Assembly: GCF_008831285.2 (NCBI RefSeq)
Contig: NC_045151.1
Location: forward strand, 679,544-743,543
Direction of reading: 5' to 3'
DNA length: 64,000 nucleotides
From: Nymphaea colorata
Lineage: Eukaryota > Streptophyta > Magnoliopsida > Nymphaeales > Nymphaeaceae
The notes under the pieces were generated by a model that saw only the letters and a list, made by a program, of their open reading frames with translations, did not search any database and was not told the DNA's origin. A program made the translations under genes and the position numbers. Shown piece by piece: positions 25,736-64,000 of this stretch (position 1 is its first letter; each line of letters opens with the position of its first letter).

Positions 25736-28043
25736 TGCTTTTTCCTTCTCCATTTCTTTCCTCTGGAATCTGTTGTCTTTTCTTTTCGCTTGGAAGAAGC
25801 ATTCTCGCCTGCATTTCGTGATGTTCCTGTGCTGTTTGGAAAGACGTCCTTGTTTTGTGATTGCAAGCTGAATGCGTTCCTTGCAGCAAAAAAAAAAAAA
25901 AAAACACTTTCGGGAACACGTTTTTTCTTCTTCAAAGTTTGCTTCATGATGGATGTCCTTCGCATCCAAATTTTACATTTTACTTTTTTTTTTAATATTT
26001 TTCAGGGAGATCCTAACGAAGTTTCTGGATTTTGTGAGCTTCTCTTAGCTCGACTAATTTCTGTTTCAAAGCTCAGTGTCGCGAAATGTCGTTTGTTCGT
26101 CTCAAAAGAAAAATTGCGTTTCATTTTTTTTTAATCTTGCGCGCGTCTAGATTTTTCTATCTATTTTTTTTGTTTCTTTGGATTATTTCGTGAGCCTTAA
26201 TTTTCGTTTTCGAGATTCTAGTGTTGCAATTTCATTTTTCCTTTTATTTGTGGTTCATGGTTCAGCCGACATTTTTCTTCTTCTCCTTGCGTTTTTTTCC
26301 TCTCCAAGGATATCTGTTAAAGGAACTCAGAAGCTTTCTTGAGTAATGCGTTTTTAAGATCAGCGTCCTGCCTTTTCCCTTTTTTAACAGCGTTCACTGG
26401 CGTCTAAAAAATATTTATATATATTTTATTTGGCATTTTCTTTTGAAAATAGTTGCATTTTTAATTACTTTAGCTTCTCAAAATTTCTGTCTTCCTGTCT
26501 ATTTTTTATACTTTATTTGCTCATATGTTCCCCCACATTTCTTTCAAATTTAAGTTTGCCGTTTTAGTTCTTCTGTTCTCGGCCATAGTCCATCGAATCG
26601 CCTTCGCGAGCCTAATCTCGGCTTGTTAATGCCTGAGCTTCCTTTCGATCCCCGAAAGATGATGAATTTCAGGGACCCTGTGTTTTGAGAGATTCCAACC
26701 TGTAACATTCTCGGTCTGCTGATTTCTAATTTCTAAGCCTTGAGGTTTCATGTATTCTACTATCTCGAAAATAGTTAAGAATTTTATTTTCAATTGCAGG
26801 GATCTCTTTTGTGCAGAGTTCTACTCCTGCGTCACACACAGGATATCTATATATATATATATATATGCTCTCCTTGGATTTTCCTTAGTTAACAGCATTT
26901 GATTATTGAGTTTTTGATGCATTATATTTTTTACGGAATACTGTTCGTTCCGTTCTCTGATTATCTTCGTCTCTGTTCAATTTTCTGCAGCAATTTGCAA
27001 TTTTTAGTTAACGTTTTCATAATTAATATTAATTTCGCGTTCCTCCAAAAGGTCGTTTTTGCATAAGCATGCCCCCACGTATCCTGATTATCGGGATAAG
27101 CTGAATTCCTGCTTCAATAGTGGATAGAAACCTATATTAAGTAAGTGGGATAAGAAAGATTAAAAAGGCACTTTTGACTCCAACTTGCGGCTTCACTTGA
27201 AATGCAGCAATTGCTTTTTCTTTTTCATAGTCAGCGTAAGTCATTTATTTCCCGCAGATCGTGTAGTTGGCAAGGTTCCAGAAATAAGAGGCCGTCCAGT
27301 GTGGACCTGTGTTGTTCCCGTCCGCTTTACCTCTAAAAGCAAACAACGATGGTGACTTTTCCTTCAGCATTTATTTATGTCCGAAACGTTACCTTCTCCT
27401 TTTGGTTTCCGATTTTGAGACTTCGCAAAATGAAATTCCTTCAATGCTTACGCGATGTTTGTAAGTTCTCCCTTTTTCGGTACGTAAATTTCTACGGTGG
27501 AAGATTTTGTAATTACGGTGTCATCAATCCATCAGGAAAGTTGAGAACTGTAATATTTTGAACACGAATGATGCCTGGGGCTGTTGATATTTCGCCAATT
27601 TAATTACGATCTTCATTTTCGGCTACCATGATGGCCATTGGTCAAGAGTCTTTTTTTTTTCTTTTCCTTTTTTTTTTAATCTTAATGAAGTGGTCCCTTC
27701 GTCTTCTCCAGCTTTTAATAGGAACCATGTGAGACCTGATGCCAGGATTCCTTCCTTTCATCTTCCATTCAGCAATCAAGTCCAGCTGGGCAGGTCATCA
27801 ACTTATGGAGATGCTTTGACTGGGATTTTCTTGTTAAGGCTGTGGAATCTCGATTATCGTCAGCTCTAGTCGTCCTGGAGTGGAATCAGGCATTCTGGTC
27901 TTGTAATGTTAAATCGAACTTACCGAGAAAAATGCTGAGTCTGAAGATTTGGTAGAGTTGGTTGTAGCCTCGGTTGCGTGGTGATTAAACGACTGCATTT
28001 TAGAGAACAAAGGTTTCACCAACAGTGGCTTCGCAGGGCAGAA
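25736..28043 (+). other. Probable 5'-UTR intron sequence and leader
   Basis: AT-rich sequence with many T runs and a TA run near 26845-26867. A plausible acceptor (CATTTTAG) lies about 40 bp upstream of the start codon at 28044. No protein-like frame is present, so this is best explained as long UTR intron(s) plus promoter of the gene that follows. Confidence 0.35.
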
Positions 28044-31000
28044 ATGGGAAGAAACATCACCTGCTTTTCTTTTTCAGAATTTGCTTTGGTCTTTGCTGTT
28101 CTTGCCGTGCTTCTGTTTCCATCTTCCAATGGGCAATTACAGTACTCTGAGGTGCAAACCCTCTTCACTGTTCAGAGGATTTTGGAGTACCCATCAGCGT
28201 TGAGTGGTTGGAGCAATCGGTCAAACTTTTGTAGTGATTTTCAAAGTTCATCTTTGACTATTGTCTGCTCCGGAGCTTCAGTAACTGAATTGAGCATTGT
28301 GGGAAACAAAGGAGCTTCTTCTGGCTCAAAGTTACTGCAAAACTTCTCAGTTTCTTATCAAACATTGTCTTCTGAGTTCTCAATTGATTCTCTTTTTGCT
28401 ACACTTTCTCAGCTTCCAAGTTTGAAGTCACTGTCACTTGTTTCACTTGGTTTATGGGGCACCTTACCCACAAGGATCAGCCTTTTGTTATCACTTCAAG
28501 TGCTGAATGTGAGCTCAAACTTCCTTTATGGATACATCCCAATGCGAGTTTCTTTGCTGAGAAGTCTACAAACTCTTGCTTTAGACAACAATATGTTCTA
28601 TGGGCATATTCCAAGATGGGTTAACTCCCTCAATTCACTTTCTGTTTTGAATTTGGGCAATAACGCGTTGAATGGTTCACTTCCATCAACGTTGGGGACT
28701 TCAAAGAACCTGAAAGTGTTGATTCTTTCAAGGAATCGTCTCTCTGGAGGTGTGCCAAATCTAAGTGGCCTAGTTAATCTCGAAGTTCTGGATTTGGGTG
28801 ATAATCTTCTTGGTCCTAAATTCCCTGCTTTAGGAAACAATTTGGTCAAACTTTCATTGCAGAGGAACCTGTTTACATACAACATTCCCTCTCAACTTGC
28901 ATCATTTGATCGATTGGAGTCATTTGATATTTCACTCAATAGATTTGTTGGGCCAATTTTGCTGCCATTGTTTTCTTTACCGTCAATTCAATATCTGAAC
29001 TTGAGCGGAAATAAGCTTACTGGTCTACTTCCTGTGCACATGAAATGCAATGCCAAACTTCAATTTGTTGATATATCTAACAATCTTTTGACCGGAGTAT
29101 TACCCACCTGTCTCCGGAACAGTTCATCCACGACAGTCTCATACTCAGGGAATTGTCTAAATAACACCTCTAAATATCAGCATCAGTATTCTTTCTGCAG
29201 CAATCCGGCTTTGGCTGCAATTCCACCTCCGCTCAAAAAGAAAACATCAAGCAACAAATTGATACTTCTACTGGGTGTTGCTGGAGGCATTGTGGCAGGT
29301 GCAGTCATAATAGGTTTCCTGATGCTTGTGCTGTTTAGAAAATGTAAGGCCCCTAACAGTAGGCGACAGAAAACTAAAGTTATTACTGCTTCAGCAGGAT
29401 TCCCTCCAAGATTATTGTCAAATTCTAGTAAGATTCATGTCTCTCTTATTTTCTAATCATAATAAACTATGAAATTAATATTCATTAATTCTGCATTTAC
29501 TTGGACCTGCACTTCCTGTTTCCTTCTTTGTCTTTTGCTTGAGCAACTGACGTTAATTATTGTTTTGTAGAATACATATCCCACACTATGAGGTTGGGTC
29601 CTCTTGGTCTGCCACCTTATCGGACTTTCACCCTTGAGGAGATTGAAGAAGCAACAGACAACTTTGATAAGTCAAATCTTATGGGCGAAGGATCTCAGGG
29701 TCAGGTATACCTTCTCATATTGCTTTTGATCTCTGCTGCGTGTTTCTTGTCATGGGGATCAAATATCTATCTTATGAAAGATTTCATCTGGTTGAAAAAC
29801 CCAATGGTTCAGGGATAAGTTAAAAATTTTGCTTTAAACTGTACAAACACACACCCACATATAGTTTGTTTTCATTTGTGGATACCACGGTGGTTTTCAT
29901 TTTGTTTCTGTTTGAGGCCACCTTTTAATGCAAATGACTCTAAGTGACAGTAAATGTGAGGCACTTTTAAAACAACGATAAACTAGCAACATGTGTTACA
30001 TGTATCTTCCTGAAGATCATCTCTCTCTTTCTTTGTCATTTTCACTAAATCCTCAAGAATTTCCCTAAACAAATTCTTCGAAGGAAAACTTTTCTTGATT
30101 CTGTAATAGAGTACCATTGGTACCTAATCTGCATTTCTGTGTGCATGTATTCATGTGCTTGCCCATATCTGCGCTGCTCTTAAGCCTCCAAGTCTGCTAT
30201 TGAGTGCTATTATATAGTTTGTCTGAGTTCCTTTATTCTACCCTTTGCATGTGGTTTCTTCAAATTAATATTTCCCTAGGAAAATTTGCATTTTACTACA
30301 ATTCAACATTGATATTTAGATTTAAAAAATTTCTCTGACTGAAGATGTACCAAATGCTACTCTAGATTTACAGAGGCAGACTTGGCAATGGCTCGTTGGT
30401 AGCTGTGAGAAGCTTTAGATTAAAGGAGAAGCACACACTAGAAAGCTTAATGCAATACATAGAACCTCTCACCAAACTAAGGCATCGTCACTTGGTCAGC
30501 ATCCTTGGTCATTGCATCGTCTGTTATATGGATAGCCAGAATGTGGAGATGGTGTATCTCATCTTTGAGTTTATATCAAATGGATCACTAAGTAGCCTTA
30601 TCTATGGTAGGGAAAAAAATTAATGAATTTTTTCAGATTCATTTTATTAAGCTTTTCAATATTTAAAATGTTCTTTCCTGATTTGACCATGTCGCAGATG
30701 GGAGACAAGGAGACATGCTGAGATGGCCAGAAAGAGTAGGAATCGCAATGGGTATTGCAAGGGGTGTCAAGTTCTTGCACACAGGAGTCGTACCTGGAGT
30801 TTTTGGTAACGATTTGAAGGCTGAAAACATTCTTTTAGACCATAATCTCACGCCGAAAATTAGTAAATATAACTTGCCCATGCCATCAAAGAGTATGGCT
30901 GTTAAGGTAATGCATAATGCTATTTACCATGTTCGGTTTATATTGCTTTCTCTTATTCTATTTCCTGGACGATACTTCCTTATGCTGGATTTTGTCTATC

Positions 31001-45474: not shown

Positions 45475-45580
45475 TTAACGTCGGTAAGTTTGAAACATGT
45501 AACTTTTTTTTCTTGCATTTTTCTAGAACGTCTTTAGCAGCATATTTATCGTCATTATTTCAGTCTAACCATGTTCTTAA
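45475..45580. repeat. Fragment of the loop (B) segment of the DUF761-associated repeat
   Basis: GTTTGAAACATGTAAC .. TTTCTAGAACGTCTTTAGCAGCATATTTATC .. CTAACCATGTTCT matches the loop segments at 48.1, 49.05, 62.45 and 63.6 kb. No arm is attached. Confidence 0.6.
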
Positions 45581-45790
45581 GGGTGCGTTTGATACACAAG
45601 GAAGAATTTAACGTGGTAAATTTACCACGGTAAATTTTTTTGGAAAAAAAATACAGGATAAAATTTAACCCTCTTCCGATTTGAGGTCATGTTTGATGCA
45701 CAAGAAGAATTTAACCCGGTAAATTTAACCCTGTTTGATGCACAAGGAAGAATTTAACCTGATAAATTTAACCCTGTTTGATGCACATGA
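45581..45790. repeat. Tandem copies of the GTTTGATGCACA end sequence
   Basis: GTTTGATRCACAAGGAAGAATTTAAC or close variants occur at about 45587, 45690 and 45730, with a further GTTTGATGCACATGA at about 45776, separated by GGTAAATTTAACCCT units. These look like stacked ends of the MITE family at 18.44 kb. Confidence 0.6.
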
Positions 45791-46247
45791 TAGAAAAATT
45801 AGGGGACTTTTTTCAGAACTGCAATAAGTTGTTCTTTTTTCTTCTCATCCCCAATTTGACGTGGGAAGAAATTAGAAGATGATCTTCCAAAACAAGAAAA
45901 TGTCTACACCTACGCCCTTTGGCTGAAAACAACAGACCATCCACCATGTTATTGACCCAACTGAACAATAAATAAAAAAGCAGCCAACAATGAAAAATAA
46001 CTTCCGCAATTGGACTTGATTCACAAAGAACAGACATTTCATTCATGTGATAAATAACAATTGCTAATGATTAACTACAAAATAGAACTAATATGCATCC
46101 AACATGGAATTTGCAGCTTATAAATTAGATATAAGGTTAAATTTGAAAGTCATGGAAAAGCAAATATAGAGTCTCAACAGAGTCCAAGGAGCATAAGTGA
46201 AGAATCAAGCTGTTATAGTTCCTGATAAATTCTAGTTCATTCTGGAT

Positions 46248-46950
46248 TTATACAAATGGAAATGCTTTATCATTTATAGCAATATCATTTTGATTTATCA
46301 AGTACAACGGATGGTGGTATGTGGAGCCAAGTTGCAGACACGCTAAAAACAGGTGACTTCTGTCAAGATTGCCACATGCACTGCAAGATCCTAAGAATTC
46401 AGTAAGGCGCCGAAGATAGACAAGTGCCTCGCATGGTACTGGATCATAGTCATAATCATCATATACAAACATCAAAAGTAGATTACACTTGCAAAGAAAT
46501 ACCGTAAAGGAACCTTAACCCTCAAAATTCAGTGGGATTCTTAAACACCAGCCTCAGTAAGGACTCGTTGGCCATAAGTGGCCACAATCCAATATAGAGG
46601 GAATTGCGCGTAGACCTTGTCACAACTTAGAAAGCAAATCCGCTTCAGTAAAAGCATAATGCGAGACTTCTGAAATTGAACTTGACATGTTCCATTAAAT
46701 GCCAAGAGCATGCTCCACATTAGGAGATCGATAATGAGAAAGGTTATCCCCAAAAGAAGTTGGAAGGAAAAGAATTTTAGGAAAAACAGCTGAAAAATGT
46801 CCCTTTTCAAGAAGCAAGGTGCCGGTGGAGATGATGAACTCCACAAGGGAAGCAGACCTAAACAAATTGTCGATGATATAAGGCAGTTATCATGCCACCA
46901 AATACTGCACAAGCACATATACACAGATAGTGAGAGAGAAAGGAGCGACC

Positions 46951-47003
<53 letters not shown>

Positions 47004-47330
47004 GTGTAGGCGACTTAGCGAACACATTTGCTCACTGAAGCATAGCGATGGCTCTCTGAAAGGCCTGGTTTCCATTGTTGGTCCTCCTCGATCACGAAGG
47101 ATAGAGAGGAACAATCTGGAACCGATTGCAAGAGAGAGACAGAGGGCGTTTTTGAAAAAGGGACACATCGAGAGCAAGAGAAACCCTTACATGAGCGGCG
47201 ACTGTGGCGTTGGAGAACCGGCGGAGGAGCGGAGCAGCAACGGCGGAGCGGCGACGGTGAGAGCGGCGACGGTCTCGAATGCGAGGGAGGGAGGAGGAGA
47301 CTGGTGAAATGAGGGGAAAGCGTCAGAGGT
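46248..47330 (-). pseudogene. Unresolved minus-strand gene or gene relic
   Basis: Three pieces look exon-like on the minus strand. Around 47330-47200 a GC-rich block reads R/S/A-rich (containing SAVAAPLLRRFSNATVAAH, presequence-like) up to a GTAAGG donor, without an in-frame ATG. Around 46890-46700 a 63-codon frame contains LEKGHFSAVFPKILFLP and is then interrupted by TAA. Around 46475-46330 a frame contains DPVPCEALVYLRRL. I recognise no family. The interruptions suggest a broken gene, but an unmodelled gene with short exons is also possible. Confidence 0.25.
46953..47003. repeat. (GA)n microsatellite
   Basis: A nearly pure GA run of about 50 bp inside the unresolved region. Confidence 0.9.
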
Positions 47331-47333
47331 CGA

Positions 47334-47396
47334 GCGGGTGAAATTTCACCCGCCCGTACAGTTTTTTCTGGAAAAATTGGTTATCAAACGGGTCCT
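47334..47396. repeat. GCGGGTGAAATTTCACCCGC palindrome and MITE end
   Basis: A perfect 20-bp palindrome (47334-47353) followed by CCGTACAG and the inverted end GGACCCGTTTGATAACC. The same core and order occur at 23.68-23.81 kb. Confidence 0.6.
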
Positions 47397-47717
47397 AAGC
47401 ATAGACAAGGGGCAAAATAGTGGTGGATCTCTTTCGGGCGGGCCGTATCAACAACAACTTTATAACTAGGAGGCACCTTTTTGAAATCATAGCTAAATTA
47501 TAGTCCTTTCATGAAAATATTCCATGTATGACCTTAAAACTAATTCGAAAAAGCTCATGTACACAGTTTTTAATTGTTTGACATGCATTCCAAGTTACCT
47601 AAGCAGAAGTGAATTCTCCAAACACATTTATACACAAAATGTAAGTGGGATAAAAACCGTGAGATGAGATTCTCTCTCTTTTAAATCAAAACGAAGCTAC
47701 TTGAAATTCATCGAAGC

Positions 47718-47796
<79 letters not shown>

Positions 47797-48074
47797 GACG
47801 GACGAACAAAATTTGGTGCGAATTAGATATTAACACGGCCATGCATAATGATGAGAAATATTGAGCATCTTGAACGAAACTGAGTTGTCAGGCAGTTCAC
47901 ACAAGACGGAAGAAGCTATGGCTCCGCGCTTTTCATATTCTCTTTTGAGATTCCAGCAATAAACGACCATGCTTGGTCTGCACTTCTTGAAGTTCCATTT
48001 CAGGCCGTTGGAGTAAGCGAAGGAAGCAGCTAAGTTGGAAGGAAGAGAGGAAAGAAAGAAATATGAACTGTATT
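47397..48074. other. Intergenic with loop-segment fragment and TA microsatellite
   Basis: 47397-47480 resembles part of the B segment (GGTGGATCTCTTT .. CAACTTTATAACTA). A (TA)n tract of about 72 bp lies at 47721-47793. No gene. Confidence 0.5.
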
Positions 48075-48710
48075 ATTATTAGTTTGAAACACGTGATTTT
48101 TTTTTTTTTCATTTTTCTGATAAGTATTTAGCAGACACAAAGTACCTGATCAGTTGGCATATTTATCATTGTTCAGTTAGTCTAACCATGTTATCAATTA
48201 TACATAAGGGGAAAAGATAAAGGTGGATCTCTTTGGGCCCATAGCAAAAACTTTATAATTATGAGGCAGTGAGAGCACGACTCGGGGGTTCATATATGGG
48301 AACTGGTAATTATGGAGTAGTTTGTTCTTCTTGACTTTGTAAAGGCACTTTGATATTCATATGCACATGACATTGTCCAGACACTTCCCCAGCCTCTTCA
48401 TCATTCTTGCCGTTTTCTGTATGTGGGATGATAACATGTACTTTTGTAGGAGAGATGAAAGGAAACCATAGCTACACATTGGTGGAGAAGTAAAAACCAA
48501 CAGTGTGGTTGCCCTACCACCAGAAAAATTAAAAAAGAAGCGACTTATAACATCTTCCTGTACCATATATATAAGATTACGTCTACTTAAATTTATAAGC
48601 TTTTGATGGTTTTGGAAACCACCTGTTTTTCCTCATTCATTTAATGAAGTTTACCAACTCGTTTTCTATAAATGATCTTAAAGGGACATGAAAAACCTCA
48701 AAAGTAAAGA
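48075..48710. repeat. DUF761-associated repeat: B segment then inverted arm A'
   Basis: The B segment (48075-48290; TTTGAAACACGTGATT .. CTAACCATGTT .. GGTGGATCTCTTTGGGCCC) is followed by A' (48290-48710), which is the reverse complement of the 5' half of the DUF761-like gene at 51.1-51.5 kb, including the complement of AAAGCCATGAAGAACAAACT. Confidence 0.7.
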
Positions 48711-49580
48711 ATTGAAAGTTAGAAGAATATGCATAGTCATTTGTTACCTTAGACCTGCACAGACTTGTAGCTTTCACTTTTTATTTTCAGTGTTTTTCAT
48801 GTTTCTTTAAGATCATTTATAGAAAATCAGTTTGTAATACAGATGAAGAGACATACATCTGCAGTGCGTGCCACCATCCTATGTGCAGAAAGCAGCAATA
48901 CAGATGAAGAGGCCAGCACAGCACCTTAACAATGCCATGTGCATTGAATAACACCTTTATAAATCCATGAAGAACAAACTATTCCATAATTATCAGCTCT
49001 CTTCCTTGCCTTGCAACACCCACTGTTCTAGCTCTCATGCAACTGCACTAATGCCTATTATACTTTTTTTACATTTTCCAAGAACGTCTTTAGCAAACCC
49101 AAAGAACTTGTTTAGCAGCATATTATCATCTTTCAGTGAGTCTAACCATGTTCTCCCGCATACACCATTGGCAAAGATAAAGGTGGATCTCTTTGGGTCC
49201 GTATCAACAATTTTATGACTGGTGGGTTGATGAGGGGGAACTGGTAACTATGGAGTAGTTTGTTCTTCATGGCTTTCTAAAGGCACTTTGATACGTGCAC
49301 GACATTGTCATGGCGCTTCCCCAACATCTTCATCATTCTTGTCTCGTTTTCTGGACGGGATGACAACATATATTTGTAGGAAAGGTGAGAGGAAACCATA
49401 GCGCACATTGGTGGAGGAGTAAAAACTGATAGTTTGGTCAGTCTACCACCAGAAAAAATTGAAAAAGAAGTGATTTATAATATCTTCCTCACCATATATA
49501 TGTAAAGTTATGTCTACCTAAGTTCACAAGCTTTTGATCGTTTTGGAAACCATGCGTGTACCTAAGTTCACAAGCTTTTG
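48711..49580. repeat. DUF761-associated fold-back unit A-B-A' (internal deletion in A)
   Basis: A (48760-49040, lacking the middle of the arm) keeps ATGAAGAACAAACTATTCCA and CTTGCCTTGCAACACC. B (49040-49240) and A' (49240-49580) follow as in the neighbouring unit. The junction 48660-48840 between consecutive A' and A is itself palindromic around AATGATCTTAAAG. Confidence 0.7.
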
Positions 49581-49599
49581 TGACTTTAAGCATGGTACT

Positions 49600-50575
49600 C
49601 GGACAAATTTTCCTGATACAATCTTAATTCTTTTTGGGAAAATTGATCAAGTTCTCTGATAGCCAAATAGTTGAAAATTCCACTTTACCAATATGTGGCC
49701 TACCTACACCCTAAAAAAGTTGCACCATGGTTGAAATTTTCTTATGGTAATTGAACCAAGAGCACTGGCAGCGTTTTCTCCTTGCATGTAAATCTAAATC
49801 AAATGGGTGATTTATAACTGCAGGTAATCAAGTAGGTGATTTTTTTTTTTATTACCGTCTGTTATATATATTAGAGATACTTTTAGATGGTCTGCAAAAC
49901 CATTTAAGTTTCTTGGAAAGTTGCAATAGTTCAAAAAATTAAATATGTTTGTAAAATATCTTTGAAAAGGTAAAAGAATGAATTTTTGCTAATATGTTTG
50001 TAAAATATCTTTATAAAGGTGTTTAGCAATGCGCATAGCTTTGCTAAGGTGTTTCCCTGGCTTCTTCATCAGTATTGTTGTTTTCTGTGCATGGGATGGT
50101 AGCGCGTACTTGCAGGAGATACCAAAGGAAACCAAAACACACATATTGGTGAAGAAGTAAAAACAAACACTTTGGCCCACCTAATACTTGAAAAATAGAA
50201 ATTGAAATGACTTGTAGCTTCTTTATCACCATACATAAATATGGAATATGATGTCCACTTAAGTTCAAATGCCTTTGATCCTTTTGGAGACCATGCACTT
50301 TTCCTCATTTTTACAATGAAGTTCACCAACTCATTTTCTATAAATGATCTTAAAAGAACATGAAAACCATTGAAAATAAAGAAGAGAATGCTAGAAAACT
50401 ATGGGCATCGGTAGCTTTCAGTGGCGGAGCCACATATGGGTTTGTGTGGGCAGTTGCCTACACAAACTATGTGGGCATCCGAAGGTTCGATTCTCATGAA
50501 TGCTCGCCTCTTGCATATGCTAATGCAGGTCTTTATCTTGAAAATGAAAGACAATGATCATGTAATTTTGCGACC
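49600..50575 (-). repeat. Left arm of a large inverted repeat (partial copy of the DUF761-like gene)
   Basis: Reverse-complement match to 50901-52330, interrupted in the match at about 51470-51940. In this arm the minus-strand gene copy reads MKKPGKHLSKAMRIAKHLYK and then jumps to unrelated sequence, so the C-terminal half of the coding region is deleted. It also includes a hAT-like end with the GTGTGGGCAGTTGCC core at 50420-50468. Confidence 0.75.
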
Positions 50576-50654
50576 TGGGGAGTTGAGTATGTATGTTCTT
50601 ATATTGAAGAAAGTGAAGGACTTTAAAATTGAAGAAAGTGAAGGAGGTTCCTGC

Positions 50655-50833
50655 CAAGGGCAGAGCCAGAATTTTTTTTAAGGACGGGCCAAACCATCTG
50701 CAGGTCGGGCCAAGAGGAGCAACGGTAAGGCCAAGAGGAGCGACGGGTCGGGCCAAACTAAAAAAAATTGATTTTTTACATATAATTTTTCTTTTCTGGG
50801 CTCACCCGGGCCATGGCCCGGGCGGCCCCCCTG
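50655..50833. mobile_element. hAT-like MITE at the centre of the large inverted repeat
   Basis: Begins CAAGGGCAGAGCCAG and ends CCCCCCTG, with flanking octamers GTTCCTGC (50647-50654) and GTTCCTAC (50834-50841), 7 of 8 identical. The interior (GGGCCATGGCCCGGGCGGCC) matches the elements at 20.07 and 23.36 kb. It lies in the unpaired spacer of the inverted repeat. Confidence 0.8.
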
Positions 50834-50900
50834 GTTCCTACTTATGTGGCCAATGCAGGTAGCAACGCTGTATCGTACATACTGAACATACATACTGAAC

Positions 50901-52330
50901 GGTCGCAAAATTACATGATCATTGTCTTTCATTTTCAAGATAAAGACCTGCTTTAGCTTATGCAAGAGGCGAGCATTCATGAGAATAGAACCCTCGGATG
51001 CCCACATAGTTTGTGTAGGCAACTGCTCACGCAAACCCATATGTGGCTCAGCCACTGAAAGCTACCGATGCCCATAGTTTTCTAGCATTCGCTTCTTTAT
51101 TTTCAATGGTTTTCATGTTCTTTTAAGATCATTTATAGAAAATGAGTTGGTGAACTTCGTTGTAAAAATGAGGAAAAGTGCATGGTTTTCAAAAGGATCA
51201 AAGGCATTTGAACTTAAGTGGACATCATATTCCATATTTATGTATGGTGATAAAGAAGATACAAGTCATTTCAATTTCTATTTTTCTAGTATTGGGTGGG
51301 CGAAAGTGTTTGTTTTTACTTCTTCACCAATGTGTGTGTTTTGGTTTCCTTTGGTATCTCCTGCAAGTACGGGCTCGGCGCTACCATCCCATGCACAGAA
51401 AACAACAATACAGATATGAAGAAGCCGGGGAAACACCTTAGCAAAGCTATGCGCATTGCTAAATATCTTTACAAAGCCATGAAGAACAAACTATTCCATA
51501 GTTACCAGCTCCCCTCCTTGCCTTGTATCAACCCACGAGTCGAGCTTTCGTGCAACTGCACTAATATTGTGGATGCCATCGACGGGAAGGAGGCCGTTGT
51601 CTCGAGTAACTATCCATCGGCGGATGACGAGGACGATGATGTGCAGGATGTGGACGAGAGGGCGGAGCAATTCATTGCCCAGGTTTACAAGGAAAATGTG
51701 AATGTTATAGACTTTGACTATAGGCAGTATGCAAAGCAACGGTTCAGGCAGTATTGGCTGACCAAACCAGCCGTTTTAGTTTGTTCTTCTCATTGATCTG
51801 CCTACAAATCTGCTTTGTCAATATGGTGTATTTGTAATAATGGTTTTGATCTTTGTCATTGAAATAAGAACTCTTGTGGGCTTCTCTTTCTACTCTCTTC
51901 CTCTCGATTTGTTCCGTCAACTCTTCCATTAGCAAAAATTCATTCTTTTACCTTTTCAAAGGTATTTTACAAACGTATTTAATTTTTTGAACTATTGCAA
52001 CTTTCCAAGAGACTTAAATGGTTTTGTAGACCATCTAAAAGTATCTCTAATATATATAACAGATAGTAAAAAAAAAAAAAAAACCTACTTGATTACCTGC
52101 AGTTATAAATCACCCATTTGATTCAGATTTACATGCAAGGAGAAAACACTGCCAGTACTCTTGGTTCAATTACCATAAGAAAATTTCAACCATGGTGCAA
52201 CATTTTTAGGGTATAGGTAGGCCACATATTGGTAAAATGGAATTTTCAACTATTTGGCTATCCGAGAACTTGATCAATTTTCCCAAAAAGAATTAAGATC
52301 GTATCAGCAAAATTTGTCCGAGTACCATAA
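50901..52330 (+). repeat. Right arm of the large inverted repeat, with complete gene copy
   Basis: Mirrors 49600-50575 over 50901-51470 and 51940-52330. The extra 51470-51940 block, absent on the left, contains the C-terminal coding half and 3' flank of the DUF761-like gene. Landmarks present in both arms include ATGATCATTGTCTTTCATTT and GGTTTTGTAGACCATCTAA. Confidence 0.75.
51416..51796 (+). CDS. DUF761-like small plant protein, 126 residues
   Basis: Single-exon frame with ATG at 51416; the frame is open further upstream, but this Met starts the conserved-looking part. Residues 1-30 are basic (MKKPGKHLSKAMRIAKYLYK, then MKNKL). Next comes a Cys-containing ELSCNCTN stretch, similar to the FSCSNTP region of DUF761 proteins. 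An acidic run (DDEDDDVQD) precedes VDERAEQFIAQVYKEN (about 84-99), which matches the VDxxAEEFIxRFYEQ core of DUF761. A Tyr/Arg/Gln-rich tail of about 27 residues follows, longer than I would expect. DUF761 members include cotton-fibre and elicitor-induced small proteins of unknown biochemical role. The 5' half is repeated many times nearby. Expression is unproven. Confidence 0.55.
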   Translation: MKKPGKHLSKAMRIAKYLYKAMKNKLFHSYQLPSLPCINPRVELSCNCTNIVDAIDGKEAVVSSNYPSADDEDDDVQDVDERAEQFIAQVYKENVNVIDFDYRQYAKQRFRQYWLTKPAVLVCSSH

Positions 52331-54850: not shown

Positions 54851-54940
54851 TTAACCTCTTGCGATGGTCTTGGCCATCGACAAAAAGCAACCAGAACCAT
54901 CGGTAAATGAATTGCCAACGGTATACGGGCCGTCGACTAT
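54851..54940. repeat. Possible left remnant of a CACTA-type element
   Basis: Contains several inverted short motifs of the kind GCGATGGTCTTGGCCATCG and CGGTATACGGGCCGTCGA. With the similar block at 58205-58365 right of the LINE, it resembles the sub-terminal repeats of plant CACTA transposons. Tentative. Confidence 0.3.
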
Positions 54941-57900
54941 ACTTCCATAGGGAAACGGTATTAGCTAGGCTTGGTGGTGTTCAACAAGCTTTGAAAACTA
55001 GGCCTCATTCTTTTCTATATAACTTAGAAAAACAATTATCTGCAGAATATAATACTACTTTGCCACAAGAGGAGATGGTGTGGTTTCAAAAGTCTCGTTC
55101 GAATTGGGTGCAATTTGGTGATCGAAATGCAAAATTTTTTAACACTACCACAATTATTCGGAGAAATAGAAATAAAATTTTATCCTTGAAAGATGAACAT
55201 GGTGATTGGATTTTGGATCCTAACCTTATCAAGCAATTGGTTATTTCTTACTTTCATCAGGTATATTCTGCAGAACTTGTTGATAATAGTTTGGAATCGA
55301 GTTGTCCAAAAACTAGTGTACCACTGGAGGATCAACAAGTGCTCAATCTGTCCCATGTTCCATAAGAAGATGAGATTTTTAAGACTTTTAAAATTTATGG
55401 CCCCTTTCAAGGCACCTGGGTTTTCATGCTGGATTTTACATTGCTAATTGGGAAGTAGTTAAATCCTCTATTTGCAAATTTGTTCAAGATGCTTTCGTAA
55501 CTGGCAAATTTGATGTTATTTTATGTCAAGTTTTGATTGTTCTTATTCCTAAAGTTGAAATCCCGAAATCAGTTTCTCAATTTCGGCATATATCTCTATG
55601 TAATGTTACTGTTAAGCTACTTTTTAAATTGATTGTTATTAGGCTTCGACCTTTCTTAGGGAATTTAATTTCCCCAACTCAGAGTAGTTTTATTCCAAGA
55701 AGAGGAACTTCTGATAATATTATTGTGGTTCAAGAGGCTCTTCATTCTCTTCGACATAAGAAAAGCAAATCCAGTGGTATGATACTGAAAATTGATTTGG
55801 AAAAGGCTTATGATCGAGTGGATTGAGACTTTCTCCGTTGGGTTCTTATGGATATTGGTTTGCCATCTGTGTTGGTATCTTTGATCATGTTTTGTGGTAC
55901 TTCAACTGAGATGAATGTTCTTTGGAATGAGGATTTGACAAATTATTTTAAACCTTCTAGAGGATTAAGACAGGGTGACCCTCTTTCACCTTATCTTTTT
56001 GTGTTATGTTTACAAAAACTTTTTGATATTATTGATACTTCGATTTGTGATGGTGCTTAGAAACCTATTTCTCTGTCTCGAGGTGGTCCTTGTTTGTCAC
56101 ATATTTTCTTTGTTGATGATTTGATTCTTATGGGTGAGGCTACAGTGGAGCAGTGTAAGACTATGATGGACTGTCTTAATAAATTTTACTCATTTTCTAG
56201 ACAGAAGGTGAATTTATCTAAATCTCTATTTTATACTTCCCCTAATGTTCATGAAGATGTTGTTCGAAGTATTCAATAGAGTTCCAGTATGCATCACTGC
56301 ACTGATCTTGGCCGTTATCTAGGGGTGCCACTACGCACCGATCGTGTCAATAGAAATACTTATTATCAACTTTTTGACAAGGTTCGCAAACGATTGTCTT
56401 CTTGGAAGGCTTCCCGACTCTTTTTAGCTGGCCATGCCACCTTAGTACAATCTGTGACTAGTTTCATTGCAGTTTATATCATGCAAACTACTAAATTGCT
56501 AGTTTCTGCTACTAACAAAATTGATAGTTTGAATAGAGATTTTCTTTGGGGATCAACGGCAGAGAAAAAGAGAGTTCGTTTGCTTAATTGGGACACTGTG
56601 TGTCGTGCAAAAGATAAAGGAGGGCTTGGTATTCATAAGTCTGCTAATATGAACAAAGCTTTGCTTGCCAAGTTATGGTGGAAATTGGAAGATGTGGATG
56701 AAGGTCTATGGGCTCGAGTTTTACGATCCAAGTATTTGAAACAATGTTCTTTTCTTCAAGCTCGTATACCCCATAATGCTTCTCACACTTGGCGGAGTAT
56801 AATCTCAACCAAATCTCTTGTTCATCAAGGTTGTGCTCGAATTGTAGGTGATGGATCAACAACTTTGTTTTGGAAGGATAAATGGATTGGGGATAAGTCC
56901 TTGCTTGAGCGCTGTAATGTTAATTTGTCTGAGGAGGAACATTCTAAACATGTTAAGGACTATGTTTATAACAACAATTGGAGTGAGCAGTTGTTAACAC
57001 TTTTGCTGGCTGATATTAGGGAACAACTTTCATTTGTGCAACTTCAACAGGATGAGCAAGATAGAAATTTTTGGCAAGCTTCAACTGATGGCAACTTCTC
57101 TATTTCTTCAGCTTATAAATTGCTTACTGTTGGTGTTCACACACATGACATCTAGTCTAAACTGTGGAAACTAGATATTCCTCCTCGGGTTAAGTTCTTT
57201 ATTTAGTAATTATTTCATAATCGTCTTCTTACTAGATCTGCTTGTGTACATCAAAATATTTTGACTACTCCAGTTTGTCCTCGGTGTGGTGCTTTTGAGG
57301 AAAATACTTTGCATGTCCTCCGAGATTGTAGTTCTTCTCAAGTTATATGGGTTGACTATCTTCATAGGGCTAAATTGTTGGAGTTTAATACAGTTACTTT
57401 AAAGGTTTGGCTGATGAATAATATTTCTATTCATCGCTTTTTGGTTAACAATATGATTCCTTGGTCTATTTTCTTTTGCTTCATTTGTTGACATATTTGG
57501 CAGTGGCGAAATCAAGTTGTATTTGAAGAAGGTTTTTCTTGGCTTGATGATGTTTTATTTTGCATAACTACTTCTATTGAGGAGTTCAGAAACCATATGG
57601 CCCAACTTCGATTATTCCAACGAAAAGTTCAAACCTTCATTGCATGGATGTCACCTCCCTTGGGTTTTGTTAAGTTAAATGTTGACGTGGCTGCTAGAAC
57701 AAATCCAGGAGACTTAGCGGCTGGTAGTTTATTTCGCAATGATAATGGAGAATGGTTATTTGGCTTCACTTGTCGTGTGAGTTATGGTCATATAACTAAG
57801 GCTGAACTTATTGCTATTCTTCATGGTTTGAAATTGGTTTGGGAGCGTGGCTTTCTTTCGTAAAGTTATTGTTGAATCAGTTTCCTTGTTAGCTGTGAAC

Positions 57901-59838: not shown

Positions 59839-60810
59839 GTGTTGAAGTAGGCCGGGGATACTAACGTTCGAAGCCCCTACTCTTTTCCTCTTGCTCCTGG
59901 GGTTCAGAGCGACCTAGGTGGGACGCGAGACACCCACATTTGCATGAGTCGAATCACAATAGGCCTTTCACCACTCCGCCAATCCGATCAGCTACATTAC
60001 ACCCCTCCAGGCAAGTGAGGATGGATGTATTTATTCAATCATGGCGGCAGGGTACACGTTCCATTCAGTTAACAAAGATAATGACTCATGAAAGATATTT
60101 CTCGATAGCAATTCTGTTTCTGATTCATGCAACAAATTCTGATTTTTCTCTCGTCTGCCCAAAATAATCATCAGTGCAACAATCACGCCTCTCTGTGTTC
60201 TTTGCCCTGCATTTGTGCTCTCCCTTGCTGCGTTCTATTTTCTTTTTCATGGTATCGGAGAGCAATTGGTGTCTTGAGCCTGTTCGTCGATTATGGCATA
60301 CTCCATCGCTTTCAGCAAGAAAAACACCTCCTATCGGTGCGTGCAGGTTCAAAGGACGTCGAGTGAAATCAGCCATGGTTTCATCAATTTGTATTTCCTT
60401 CATCACAGCAACAACCTAGGTATTGTACTTGTCATTAATCCTTTAACAGAAGACAACTATGTTACCTAGAGTCGATCCATGACAATGGCGTCAGAGGCCC
60501 ACAATAAATTTGTTTCTGTAGATAGTTCTTTGCTCCGCTCGAACCAAACAAGGCTGAATACATTCTTTGGCCGAGATGCAACATTGTAGTTCTGTCTTGG
60601 ATTATAAATTCATTGTCCAAAGAGATAGCCAGTAGTGTCATCTATGCTGCAATATCTGTTAAGGCTTCTCTTGTAGGAGAAGCTGTTCTTTCATCCACGG
60701 TAACCTTGCAACATGTCTGCTATGTTCCTAATTTCAGAAACAATCTCATCTCCATTAATCAATTGATAAAACAAAACTAAATTATTCTGTTTTTTGTTGC
60801 CAGCCCAGAA
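59839..60810 (+). mobile_element. Copia-type LTR retrotransposon remnant, plus strand
   Basis: A probable LTR from TGTTGAAGTAGG (59839) to TTTTTCA (60248) is followed by TGGTATCGGAGAGC, a slightly mutated primer-binding site. Near 60700-60780 a frame reads LQHVCYVPNFRNNLISINQL, the conserved protease-downstream segment of copia polyproteins. Gag and most of pol are deleted or unreadable. Confidence 0.6.
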
Positions 60811-61249
60811 CTCCAAGTAATTTGTCCCATTTAATGGTGCGATAGCAACTTTACTTATATAATCACCTTCTGGGATGTCGTTCCTTGTGCCTCATGTGAC
60901 GTTCTACAAAATTGTTATCTCCCCAATTTTTCTCTCTCCTTAACCCTTGTAATTTATATAAAATAAGTAAATGTTTTTTAAAATTTATTGTTAATTTTTT
61001 TTTTATGTGAAGCTAGGGCCCATGCGAGCTGATTACCGTGGAAGCTAGATTTCATTCTCGAAGAACGGAGGAGGTCTTGATCCATCAAACTGCTTATGAG
61101 AAAATGAAAGCCCTCTTAACGTTTGCGCCGGAGGTTTATATGGCGGTGGAGTTTGACAGGGCATGGACTATCGATAGATTTGATGGTGCAAGTTAGCAGT
61201 CCCCCAATCCCCCGATGTTCAGATATTATAGAGTTACTTTCAGGGAATC
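60811..61249. other. Intergenic, no gene seen
   Basis: Short frames only; no motif recognised. Confidence 0.5.
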
Positions 61250-61405
61250 ATATGTATAAAAATGATGTTCACCTAAGTTCAAAAGCTTTTAATCGTTCTG
61301 GAAACTACGGGTTTTCATCATTTATATAAAAAAAGTTTATCAACTCATTTTCTATCAATGACATTAAAGAAATATGAAAAACACCAAAAATAAATAATCG
61401 GAAGT
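61250..61405. repeat. Isolated inverted-arm (A') fragment of the DUF761-associated repeat
   Basis: CACCTAAGTTCAAAAGCTTTT .. CTCATTTTCTAT .. ATGAAAAACACC matches the outer part of A' arms at 48.6 and 62.95 kb. Confidence 0.6.
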
Positions 61406-62084
61406 TACTTTATTAAAATGAGTGTATTAAACAATTATAGAAACTAAAGTGAAAAACAAGCCCTCGTTTATAATCCAGATAAAAAGAATTTGGTTTTTCT
61501 TTTCTAAAAGTTCAATTACATTGTTGTTCAATTCCCATAGGTATTACTCAGTGCTTCGGGTCTCAGTTGGGTGGTGAATGGTTAACCGTTTGCTCACCCA
61601 CCCAAACAAGACCAAGTTTCTATATAATTGGATAATTAAAGCATAATTGGTTCTAGAGTATGCCATTTGAAGGGTCTTCATGTCAATGAGGGAATAGTTT
61701 CATTTCTTCTTGACACACTTTAATGTGTTTTATAAACAAGAAAATTCTAGTTATTATCATACAAATAATGACTTTATTTTCACAATTGAAAAGCATAGGT
61801 TTTAATGTGACGATTGTTGGTTAGGCCAGTGACTGGTACCGAGTAGTCCTTGGTTCTATTTCTGTGGGCATCAACCTTCTGTACTGGTCAAAGCTGTCAT
61901 AAGTCTAGAATACAGTACAAGGGTAATATCCTAATAACATCTTGGTACAAATGAAAGATCTTAGCAAACAACCTAACACTACATTGTAATCTGTGATTCG
62001 TACGTGTGTATTTTGTTTTCCTCTCAAGACTAATACATTTTAATACATTCATTTTCTATACTCACCTGCATAGACTTTTAGCTT
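61406..62084. other. Intergenic, no gene seen
   Basis: AT-rich sequence between the isolated arm fragment and the first complete fold-back unit; no protein motif. Confidence 0.5.
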
Positions 62085-63062
62085 TGAGTTCTTTATTCTA
62101 GGTGCTTTTCATGTTACTTTAAGATCACCCATAGAAAACGAGTTGGTAAACTTTTTTATGAAAATGAAGCAAAACACATGGTTTCAAGAAGGCCAAAGTG
62201 TTGGGTTTTACTTCTTCACCAATGTGAGCGCTTTGATTTCCTCTTGCCTCTCTTGCAAACATGTGCTGCCCACCTGTACTCAGAAACTAGCAAAACTGAC
62301 GAAGAGGTCAGGGGGAGCACAATCAACAATGTCATGCATGCAGTGAAATGCCTTCACAAAGCCATGAAGAATAGATTACTCCACGATTACCAGCTGCTCC
62401 CTCCTTGCTCTGTATCAACCCACGAGTTGAGCTCTTGTGCAATTGCACTAACACCTATTATTGGTTTGAACATGTGATCTTTTTTCATTATTCTAGTACG
62501 TCTTTAGCATACTCAAAGTACATAATTAATGGCATATTTATCATCATTCAATTAGTTTTACGATGTTCTCAATTATACATAAAGTGCAAAGAAAAAGTTG
62601 GATCTCTTTGGCCCATATCAACAACTTTATAACCATGAGGTAGTGAGAGCACGACTCGTGGGTTGATATAGGAGAACTGGTAACCATGGAGTACTTTGTT
62701 CTTCATGACTTTCGAAAGCCACTGCACTTTCATAGACAGATGACATTGTCAAGACACTTTCTGTCATTCTCAGCACGTTATTTTGTAGGAGAGATCAGAG
62801 GAAACCATAGGCCACACATTGGTGGAGAAGTAAAAATCGACAGTTTGGTCAGCCTGGCCACCAGAAAAATTGAAAAAGAAGTGACTTATAACTTATTCAT
62901 TACCATATATATATATTAGGTTATGTCTACCTAAGTTCATAAGCTTTTGATAATTTTGGAAACCACATGTTTTTCCTCATTTATAAAAAGAAGTTTACCA
63001 ACTCATTTTCTATAAATGATCTTAAAAGAACATCAAAAGCTCCAAAAGCGAAGAATCGAAAG
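62085..63062. repeat. DUF761-associated fold-back unit 1 (A-B-A')
   Basis: Arm A (62085-62445) runs in the gene orientation from the leader into the coding part (ATGAAGAATAGATTACTCCA .. CTTGTGCAATTGCACTAA). The loop B is 62446-62670. A' (62671-63062) is the reverse complement of A (complement of CATGAAGAACAAAGTACTCC onward). Total about 980 bp; the reading frame in A is interrupted. Confidence 0.78.
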
Positions 63063-64000
63063 TTCGAAGAACATGCATAGTCATCGGTTACCTTTAAACC
63101 TGCGCAGTCTTCTAGCTTTTACTTCTTTATTTTCAGTGTTTTTCGTGTCCCTTTAGGATCATTTATAGAAAACGAATTGGTAAACTTATTCGTAAAAAAT
63201 AAAGGAAAGTGCATGGTTCCAAAAGGATCAAAAGCACTTGAATTTAAGTGGACATCAAATTCCGTCCATTTATATGATGATCATAAAGAAGATATGAGTC
63301 ATTTCATTTTCTATTTTTCTGGTATTAGGTAGGCAGAAATATTAGACGTGTGTGTTTTGGTTTCCTCTCGCAACTCCTGCAAGTACGTGCCGCCATCCCT
63401 CGTGCAAGAAACAGCAATAAAGATGAAGATTGGAGAGGTCGGGAAAACACCTTAACAACGCCATGCGCATTGTGAAACACCTTTGAAAAGTCATGAAGAA
63501 CAAACTATTCCATCGTAACCAGCTCTCCTCCTTGCCCTGCAACGACCCACAGATCGAGCTCTTGTGCAACTGCACTGATACCTATTATTAGTTTGAAACA
63601 AGTGAATTCTTTACATTTTTCTAAATCTTTAGCAAACCCTAAATACTTGTTTAGCAGCATATTTATCATCATTCAGTTAGTCTAACCATGTTCTCAAGCT
63701 TACAAAGTGGCAAAGATAAATGCGGATCTCTTTGGGTCCGTCTCAACAACTTTATGACTATGAGGTAGTGAAATCACGACTGGAGGGTTGATATGGGAGA
63801 ACTGGCAACTACGGAGTAGTTTGCTCTTCATGGCTTTGCATGACATTGTCACGGCGTCTCCCCAGCCTCTTCATCTTTCTTACAGTTTTATGCATGTGGG
63901 GTGGCAACATGTATTAATTTGTAAGAAGCATGAGAGGAAACCATAGCGCACACATTGGTGCAACTGACAGTTCAGACAATCTACCAGCAAAAAAAAATAA
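63063..64000. repeat. DUF761-associated fold-back unit 2 (A-B-A', cut by window end)
   Basis: Arm A at 63109-63580, loop B 63581-63800, A' from 63801 to the window end. It follows unit 1 directly, making a tandem array of fold-back units with a period near 1 kb. The A arm again covers leader and N-terminal coding sequence (GCCATGCGCATTGTGAAACA, TCATGAAGAACAAACTATTC), with in-frame breaks. Confidence 0.78.

Follow-up and report, generated by a model that had tools for sequence, protein, structure and literature searches.

Introduction

Young plant MIRNA loci and inverted-duplication siRNA loci possess foldback arms that derive from a protein-coding gene, and in one case the promoter was copied along with the gene. 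According to the accessible portions of these papers, further drift and death is perhaps the commonest fate of such loci (PMC1790633, PMC3237417). At the soybean I locus, the accessible part of the report describes whole CHS genes arranged as two perfect inverted clusters of 10.91 kb, whose siRNAs act on CHS7/8, the gene groups being only 82% alike (PMC3804491); a source-target identity of 82% can therefore be sufficient. In the portions of the literature compared here, plant hairpin loci derived from inverted gene duplications consist of single foldbacks or of one large inverted cluster. None of the listed titles and opening lines of abstracts, a collection covering few subscription journals, referred to a DUF761 hairpin; those combining DUF761 with small RNA or siRNA dealt with miR319d overexpression and with VirE2.

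Results

A tandem array of inverted DUF761-like gene copies

The window analysed here is a 64,000-nt stretch of Nymphaea colorata contig C14, and coordinates without a contig name refer to it. It contains truncated copies of a DUF761-like gene that alternate in direction and build A-B-A′ units of ~1.0-1.1 kb. The array spans 45.5-49.6 and 61.2-64.0 kb, includes TE insertions and extends 0.2 kb beyond the window. In BLAST comparisons of the array with the region of the gene, the longest matches had E values down to 3e-106, which excludes chance similarity. From left to right, the order is a split B remnant, B48-A′48, A49-B49-A′49, the inverted gene copy and the gene itself (gene′|gene), A′61|A62-B62-A′62, A63-B63-A′63 and, outside the window, a pseudogene copy.

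In the first part, the loop-B profile revealed remnants at 45.49 and 47.39 kb. These are the two pieces of one loop (45487..45580, +; nhmmer match 45487-45601, E 1.4e-13; and 47396..47475, +; nhmmer match 47393-47475, E 6.3e-11), interrupted by a 1.8-kb insertion (45581..47395) with inverted ends GGGTGCGTTTGATA / TATCAAACGGGTCC and TAA on both sides, which we take to be PIF/Harbinger-like. A profile of all arms located additional array elements at 48.07-49.58 kb and, at 61.22 kb, an isolated A′ fragment. Unit 48 has lost its A arm and retains loop B (48074..48270, +) and A′ (48271..48731, −), the latter 70% identical to the gene and 83% to A′62. Unit 49 comprises an A arm with a ~200-bp internal deletion corresponding to about 51151-51350 of the gene (48753..49052, +), loop B (49064..49234, +) and an A′ arm (49235..49576, −) that contains a 21-mer fully complementary to gene positions 51473-51493.

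The second part begins with the A′61 fragment (61220..61415, −; nhmmer E 3.7e-43), which includes only the leader and lies head-to-head with A62; their junction carries a 641-bp insertion (61415..62055) with 17-nt terminal inverted repeats that are 94% identical. Unit 62 is formed by an A arm with a ~100-bp leader deletion, equivalent to about 51197-51298 of the gene (62067..62451, +), loop B (62456..62644, +; nhmmer) and A′ (62645..63077, −). In unit 63, the A arm (63098..63580, +) is the closest to the gene of the array arms inside the window (81.5%), and it is followed by loop B (63583..63795, +; nhmmer) and by A′ (63796..64000, −), which runs on to C14:743741, beyond the window end. Another 27 nt on, from C14:743769, follows a head-to-head pseudogene copy that is interrupted but almost complete and whose frame contains a stop. 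Wherever the junction between A′ and the next A is undisturbed, the two are head-to-head and separated by 20-27 nt.

The A-B-A′ units that the preliminary description had reported were thus found as A62/B62/A′62 and A63/B63/A′63 at 62067-64000. Its A element, described as the leader and first half of the gene, corresponds to gene positions 51076-51566, that is, the leader and the first 151 of the 381 nt of the ORF, and both arms resemble this one gene over up to ~490 nt. Loop B, given as roughly 230 bp, measures about 190-215 bp. A′ had been regarded as the reverse complement of A; the inverted orientation held, whereas the close match did not, since the identity between arms within a unit amounts to no more than 51-75%, varying with unit and region. 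The array is indeed present in the last 2 kb of the window, where it had been placed, but it is larger, also occupying 45.49-49.58 kb, and a stronger fold-back lies at 49592-52328. The proposed search for further units in the genome yielded more of them in the window and, among the best-scoring candidates, placed the array at the C14 locus only.

The intact gene forms a young palindrome

The gene carries a 381-nt ORF encoding 126 aa (51416..51796, +) that matched Pfam PF05553 with E 0.002 and 18.1 bits, under the 22-bit cut-off. A relative of this ORF at C1:32372238, 55% alike over aa 16-93, belongs to a locus scoring above the cut-off, and for these two reasons we refer to the gene as DUF761-like. 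The derivation of the array from such a gene, as originally suggested, is supported by the 18.1-bit match and the C1 relative, the domain score itself being below the cut-off. The last 34-36 residues of the ORF also gave short matches at C14:367896-367997 (L063, 74%) and C1:31040203-31040310 (L067, 61%), which are probably further 3′-end fragments or relatives.

The gene, its leader and its 3′ flank constitute the right arm of a palindrome (50884..52328, +). On the left, gene′ consists of an inverted copy of the 3′ flank (51928-52328) at 49592..49993 (−; 95.5% identity, K2P 0.044) and of the inverted leader plus the first 61 nt of the CDS (50884-51476) at 50009..50598 (−; 93.8% gapped and 96.2% ungapped identity), and it has no counterpart of 51477-51927, the stretch with the remainder of the CDS and the sequence that follows it. 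Together, the intact gene and its inverted copy (49592-52328, ~96% ungapped identity) represent the strongest hairpin of the window, whose inner palindrome (50009-51476, 1,468 nt) folds at −1094.7 kcal/mol; the palindrome shows 561-572 long-range pairs. Judging from K2P distances of 0.035-0.046 versus ~0.25 for the array, the palindrome is young relative to the array. With a plant substitution rate of 7e-9, their ages would be roughly ~3 and ~18 million years, respectively. Since the palindrome is head-to-head, the gene promoter would not be expected to transcribe both of its arms; the tail-to-tail units of the array would be suitably oriented to yield a hairpin transcript.

A TE-like stretch at 50419-51057, starting with CAGTGGCGGAGCCACATATGGG and with the terminus CAGTGGCGGAGCC at 50419, is mirrored within the palindrome, and matches of the palindrome elsewhere (C2, C5, C9 and C10) fell only in this stretch or at its edge. 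The interval that separates the first part of the array from the second harbours LINE-type frames (reverse-transcriptase and RNase H-like) together with a Copia-type Pol_BBD fragment (54907-57863 and 60526-60780). The window also contains a ribosomal protein L14 gene (40582-40977, −; PF00238) and an LRR-rich frame, perhaps a receptor-like kinase exon (27945-29456, +).

Array units fold into hairpins and are complementary to the gene

The stretch 62085-63062, which the preliminary description proposed to fold, reached −342.1 kcal/mol compared to an average of −217.2 for 20 dinucleotide shuffles (z −18.8). Unit 63, which is truncated at the end of the window, and unit 49 gave z values of −7.8 and −4.1 (20 shuffles each), in agreement with the anticipated hairpin geometry. 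As genomic controls we folded 40 random 1,001-nt stretches from window positions 1-45000, which presented a maximum of 123 long-range pairs and a best energy of −0.292 kcal/mol per nt. Units 62, 63 and 49 showed 138-251 long-range pairs, with energies per nt of −0.352 to −0.368, −0.305 to −0.311 and −0.266 to −0.283, respectively. The arms therefore fold on each other, units 62 and 63 exceeding all controls in energy while unit 49 did so in long-range pairs and fell short of them in energy per nt.

Complementarity was evaluated by comparing array 21-mers with gene positions 51100-51900, counting as a hit any window site with a plant-style penalty ≤4 and summing ten unit-strand rows. This produced 608 hits, of which 351 lay in the presumed transcript, from 51280 onwards, while none of 8000 control windows scored at this level; 28 out of 6984 array 21-mers were fully complementary to the gene. 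The arms are hence not too diverged to pair with the gene, an objection raised beforehand, and it is expression, not complementarity, that limits the small-RNA hypothesis.

Partner arms show no sign of being kept matched

Arms that functioned as hairpins might be expected to remain matched within each unit. AU tests rejected a grouping of A with the A′ of its own unit in all three cases (2e-4 for unit 62, 1e-11 for unit 49 and 4e-6 for unit 63). In a tree of ten arms or gene copies, in which A′61 was only 44% filled, the gene, gene′, A63 and A49 formed one starred group (98/94), with the A′ arms across a weak branch (76/68). A62, with 70-74% identity to the other A arms, found no clear place among them, so that the A/A′ split is weakly supported as a whole. 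Because A and A′ within a unit are not each other's sisters, the inverted pair originated first and was amplified afterwards.

Mean K2P distances were 0.245 for loop B, 0.255 for A′ and 0.306 for A with the gene; by this measure the arms diverge about like their loop and are not conserved as a hairpin. Similarly, the paired fractions of units 62, 63 and 49 with their own partner were 0.70, 0.73 and 0.53, versus 0.65-0.76 across units. A62 paired with A′62 at −281 (0.70) and with A′48 at −323 (0.75), A63 reached 0.73 with its own partner and 0.73-0.76 with the others, and A49 reached 0.53 and 0.65-0.75, respectively. A′62 and A′49 paired with the gene at −392 and −316, compared to −281 with A62 and −150 with A49, these A arms being shorter. 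The sole result that favoured partners was the A62 leader, 75% identical to its own A′62 and 63-73% to the other A′ arms. Overall, identity, energy and paired fraction revealed no consistent excess of within-unit over cross-unit pairing, and by this standard we found no indication that selection or conversion had kept arm-to-arm pairing in the C14 array.

Differences at the three codon positions of seven arms were nearly even (0.299/0.301/0.286), showing no coding constraint on the arms, and in each of the seven array arms extending into the CDS the frame is broken by a stop, shifted or devoid of a start. The best conserved 21-nt block (51314-51334; p 0.016, column shuffles) was rejected as a miRNA-like block, being absent from A63 and A49, two of the three A arms, and only partial in A′63. 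The CDS block 51473-51493 was not conserved beyond column shuffles (p 0.22). A 21-nt block shared by every unit and conserved beyond shuffles, of the kind that a MIRNA duplex would leave, was not found, and no Rfam family matched the window at gathering thresholds.

Transitions and transversions numbered 86:26 in A, 60:34 in A′ and 24:28 in loop B (p 0.00016 for A and 0.054 for A′, each versus the loop), and the arms lacked the wobble-direction bias expected from G-U pairing. Compensatory pairing was discarded, as neither the comparison across units nor the counts of wobble direction showed a consistent pattern. A methylation footprint was discarded as well: T>C and A>G rose together with C>T and G>A, so the transition excess is not a deamination signature, and CpG counts were too small. 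Finally, the leader presented long open frames but neither a Pfam match nor a third-position excess, and a coding leader was also rejected; its consideration as a promoter is based on TATA-like stretches in the A′ arms. Taken together, the geometry, the DUF761-like origin and a possible pairing agree with the interpretation first given to this locus, while signs of hairpin maintenance, and of present selection for siRNA production, did not appear in these comparisons.

A second array with the same plan on C5

A PF05553 search of the N. colorata genome (407.8 Mb) gave 33 matches. Six of them, on C5, followed a strict +-+-+- order, 430-509 bp apart, with no stop inside the domain. They belong to a second array (C5:1936251-1939264; L047:6252-9265) of six DUF761 3′-end fragments, whose arms of 390-630 bp overlap at palindromic centres and make up three hairpin units (−662, −708 and −724 kcal/mol); L047:6252-7209, a part of the array that includes AT repeats, gave a z of −64.8. 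These arms are 86-93% alike and show no codon-position bias. AU tests rejected none of seven groupings (lowest p 0.064), and the tree of arms and parent lacked clear branching.

The parent corresponds to the 3′ end of a 590-aa DUF761 ORF on C12 (C12:15044877-15045313, 90% identity). Counting both strands, 517 of 5988 array 21-mers were fully complementary to this stretch, none of them composed of two letters only, and 1985 had a penalty ≤4, so that the C5 array, like that of C14, is complementary to a gene lying outside its hairpins. Some 21-mers were also common to the C5 array and the loci L044 (34) and L042 (3); these were rejected as AT and AC repeats, and hence none of the ten other DUF761 loci has real sequence in common with the array. 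No DNA similarity between the C5 array and the array of the window was detected at E 1e-4. AT repeats also occur where the 5′ ends of neighbouring C5 arms meet, and the outer flanks of the array (L047 4319-4514 and 9263-9462) are likewise inverted copies.

The same alternating plan has thus arisen twice within one gene family, and, from the sequences compared, the two arrays are made of different pieces of different family members. The C5 array is the better candidate for a hairpin-siRNA locus: with near-perfect hairpins matching the C12 DUF761 gene, it is more likely to be the living version of this architecture. As a baseline, alternating runs of at least 3 matches at ≤700 bp were sought by eye in PF02519 (113 matches), PF00280 (11) and PF00847 (94), and none were seen. 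Alternation alone is not special, however, since it also occurs among SAUR genes on C2, with spacings of 1.1-1.8 kb and mostly open frames. The nearest alternating SAUR neighbours that were seen are ~960 bp apart. The recurrence in DUF761 genes is drawn from two cases, one of them the window given at the outset, and from a weak control of three families.

DUF761-like ORFs located between inverted repeats were also observed at C7:15054-41864 and C7:18242099-18255451 (L072-L075 and L079). The repeats, of about 670-800 bp and 78-81% identity, were present in five of six such C7 loci and missing in L078; the ORF is 218 aa long, as seen in L072, and three copies are ~13.3 kb apart.

Discussion

We consider that the C14 locus is probably an old array of inverted, truncated DUF761-like gene copies, a decaying hairpin locus that would be capable of producing siRNAs if transcribed; we assign this reading a probability of about 0.6. 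The sequence supports a history that began, prior to any multiplication of units, with the copying of the leader and 5′ CDS to form a tail-to-tail pair flanking loop B. The inverted pair was then tandemly amplified, its copies losing their frames, gaining deletions and TE insertions and diverging about as fast as the loop, and the intact gene later acquired an inverted neighbour without most of the CDS. A transcript starting from the leader of either arm and crossing B into the other arm might then form a long imperfect hairpin, which Dicer-like cutting could turn into siRNAs able to pair with the DUF761-like mRNA.

What speaks against this decaying hairpin locus is that alternating local duplication followed by neutral decay would give an identical sequence, siRNAs never being needed; the energy of unit 49 within the controls, the weak A/A′ split and the transition excess in the arms also count against it. 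It is quite possible, at somewhat less than even odds, that the array is just a relic of such duplications of gene fragments, which never made functional small RNAs and whose hairpins are a by-product. The neutral-looking divergence, deletions, insertions and lost frames suit a plain relic, while the emergence of the same plan twice from one family, with no such runs in three others (a weak control), argues against it. The odds of these two readings overlap, since they have all sequence-supported steps in common and differ only in the inferred one. That the units are transcribed now and regulate DUF761 transcripts, as an active hairpin-siRNA or proto-MIRNA locus, is more doubtful. Geometry, folding, complementarity and the A62 leader, nearest to its own A′62 (75% vs 63-73%), are in line with activity; diverged arms would be tolerable, judging from the 82% described in the accessible part of the soybean CHS report (PMC3804491), and young MIRNA loci have gene-derived arms, as far as that source extends (PMC1790633). 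However, neither energy nor paired fraction favoured partners, conservation in the arms does not exceed that in the loop, block 51314-51334 is absent from A63 and A49 and block 51473-51493 reached only p 0.22, and neither a wobble-direction bias in the arms nor an Rfam match in the window was found.

Two further explanations carry little weight. Inverted arms around a unique middle, together with TE-like termini nearby (CAGTGGCGGAGCC at 50419), recall a foldback or Pack-type TE carrying a DUF761 fragment; this is very improbable, as the units are tandem with junctions in common and, among the best candidates in the genome, no dispersed copies were found except for the TE-like part of the palindrome. 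An even smaller chance is left for a collapsed or mis-joined repeat: inverted repeats are hard to assemble, but the array copies differ by ~15-49% depending on the pair and bear private deletions and TE insertions, and even the youngest element, the palindrome, is ~4% different. We classify the C14 array as a gene-derived inverted-duplication hairpin locus that is probably decaying, rather than as a MIRNA or a proven siRNA source.

A single genome contains a pair of tandem hairpin arrays that differ in age and stem from different members of one family, with the presumed parents in place: the old array encloses an intact gene, and the young one has its counterpart in the C12 gene. This allows a direct comparison of the birth, amplification and decay of hairpin loci. 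A bolder and rather unlikely proposal is that DUF761 genes are here a recurrent target of self-derived RNAi, hairpin arrays having arisen from family members at least twice, independently, and producing siRNAs against their parents, as with the tandem hpRNA clusters of Drosophila; C14, from the 5′ half, would then be a dying generation and C5, from the 3′ end with the DUF761 domain, the current one. Should the arrays prove to silence the genes they came from, the DUF761 family would represent, in plants, an equivalent of the hpRNA conflicts described for flies.

Compared to known systems, and within the portions of those reports accessible here, the C14 array is similar to young plant MIRNA and inverted-duplication loci in its gene-derived foldback arms, and the fate of drift and death fits it. 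It differs from young MIRNA loci in its tandem units, in its arms of ~300-480 nt, in lacking a conserved miRNA/miRNA* block and in being known from sequence alone. It shares with the soybean I locus an inverted cluster from a gene family, made there of whole genes and here of short, alternating tandem fragments. The closest to the tandem form are the hp-tHMG and hp-CG4068 clusters of Drosophila with their interspersed paralogues (PMC10317233). According to the accessible part of that report, siRNAs and Dcr-2 dependence were demonstrated for the fly clusters, whereas the plant arrays are described from DNA; within this comparison, the arms of C14 are old and those of C5 are 86-93% alike.
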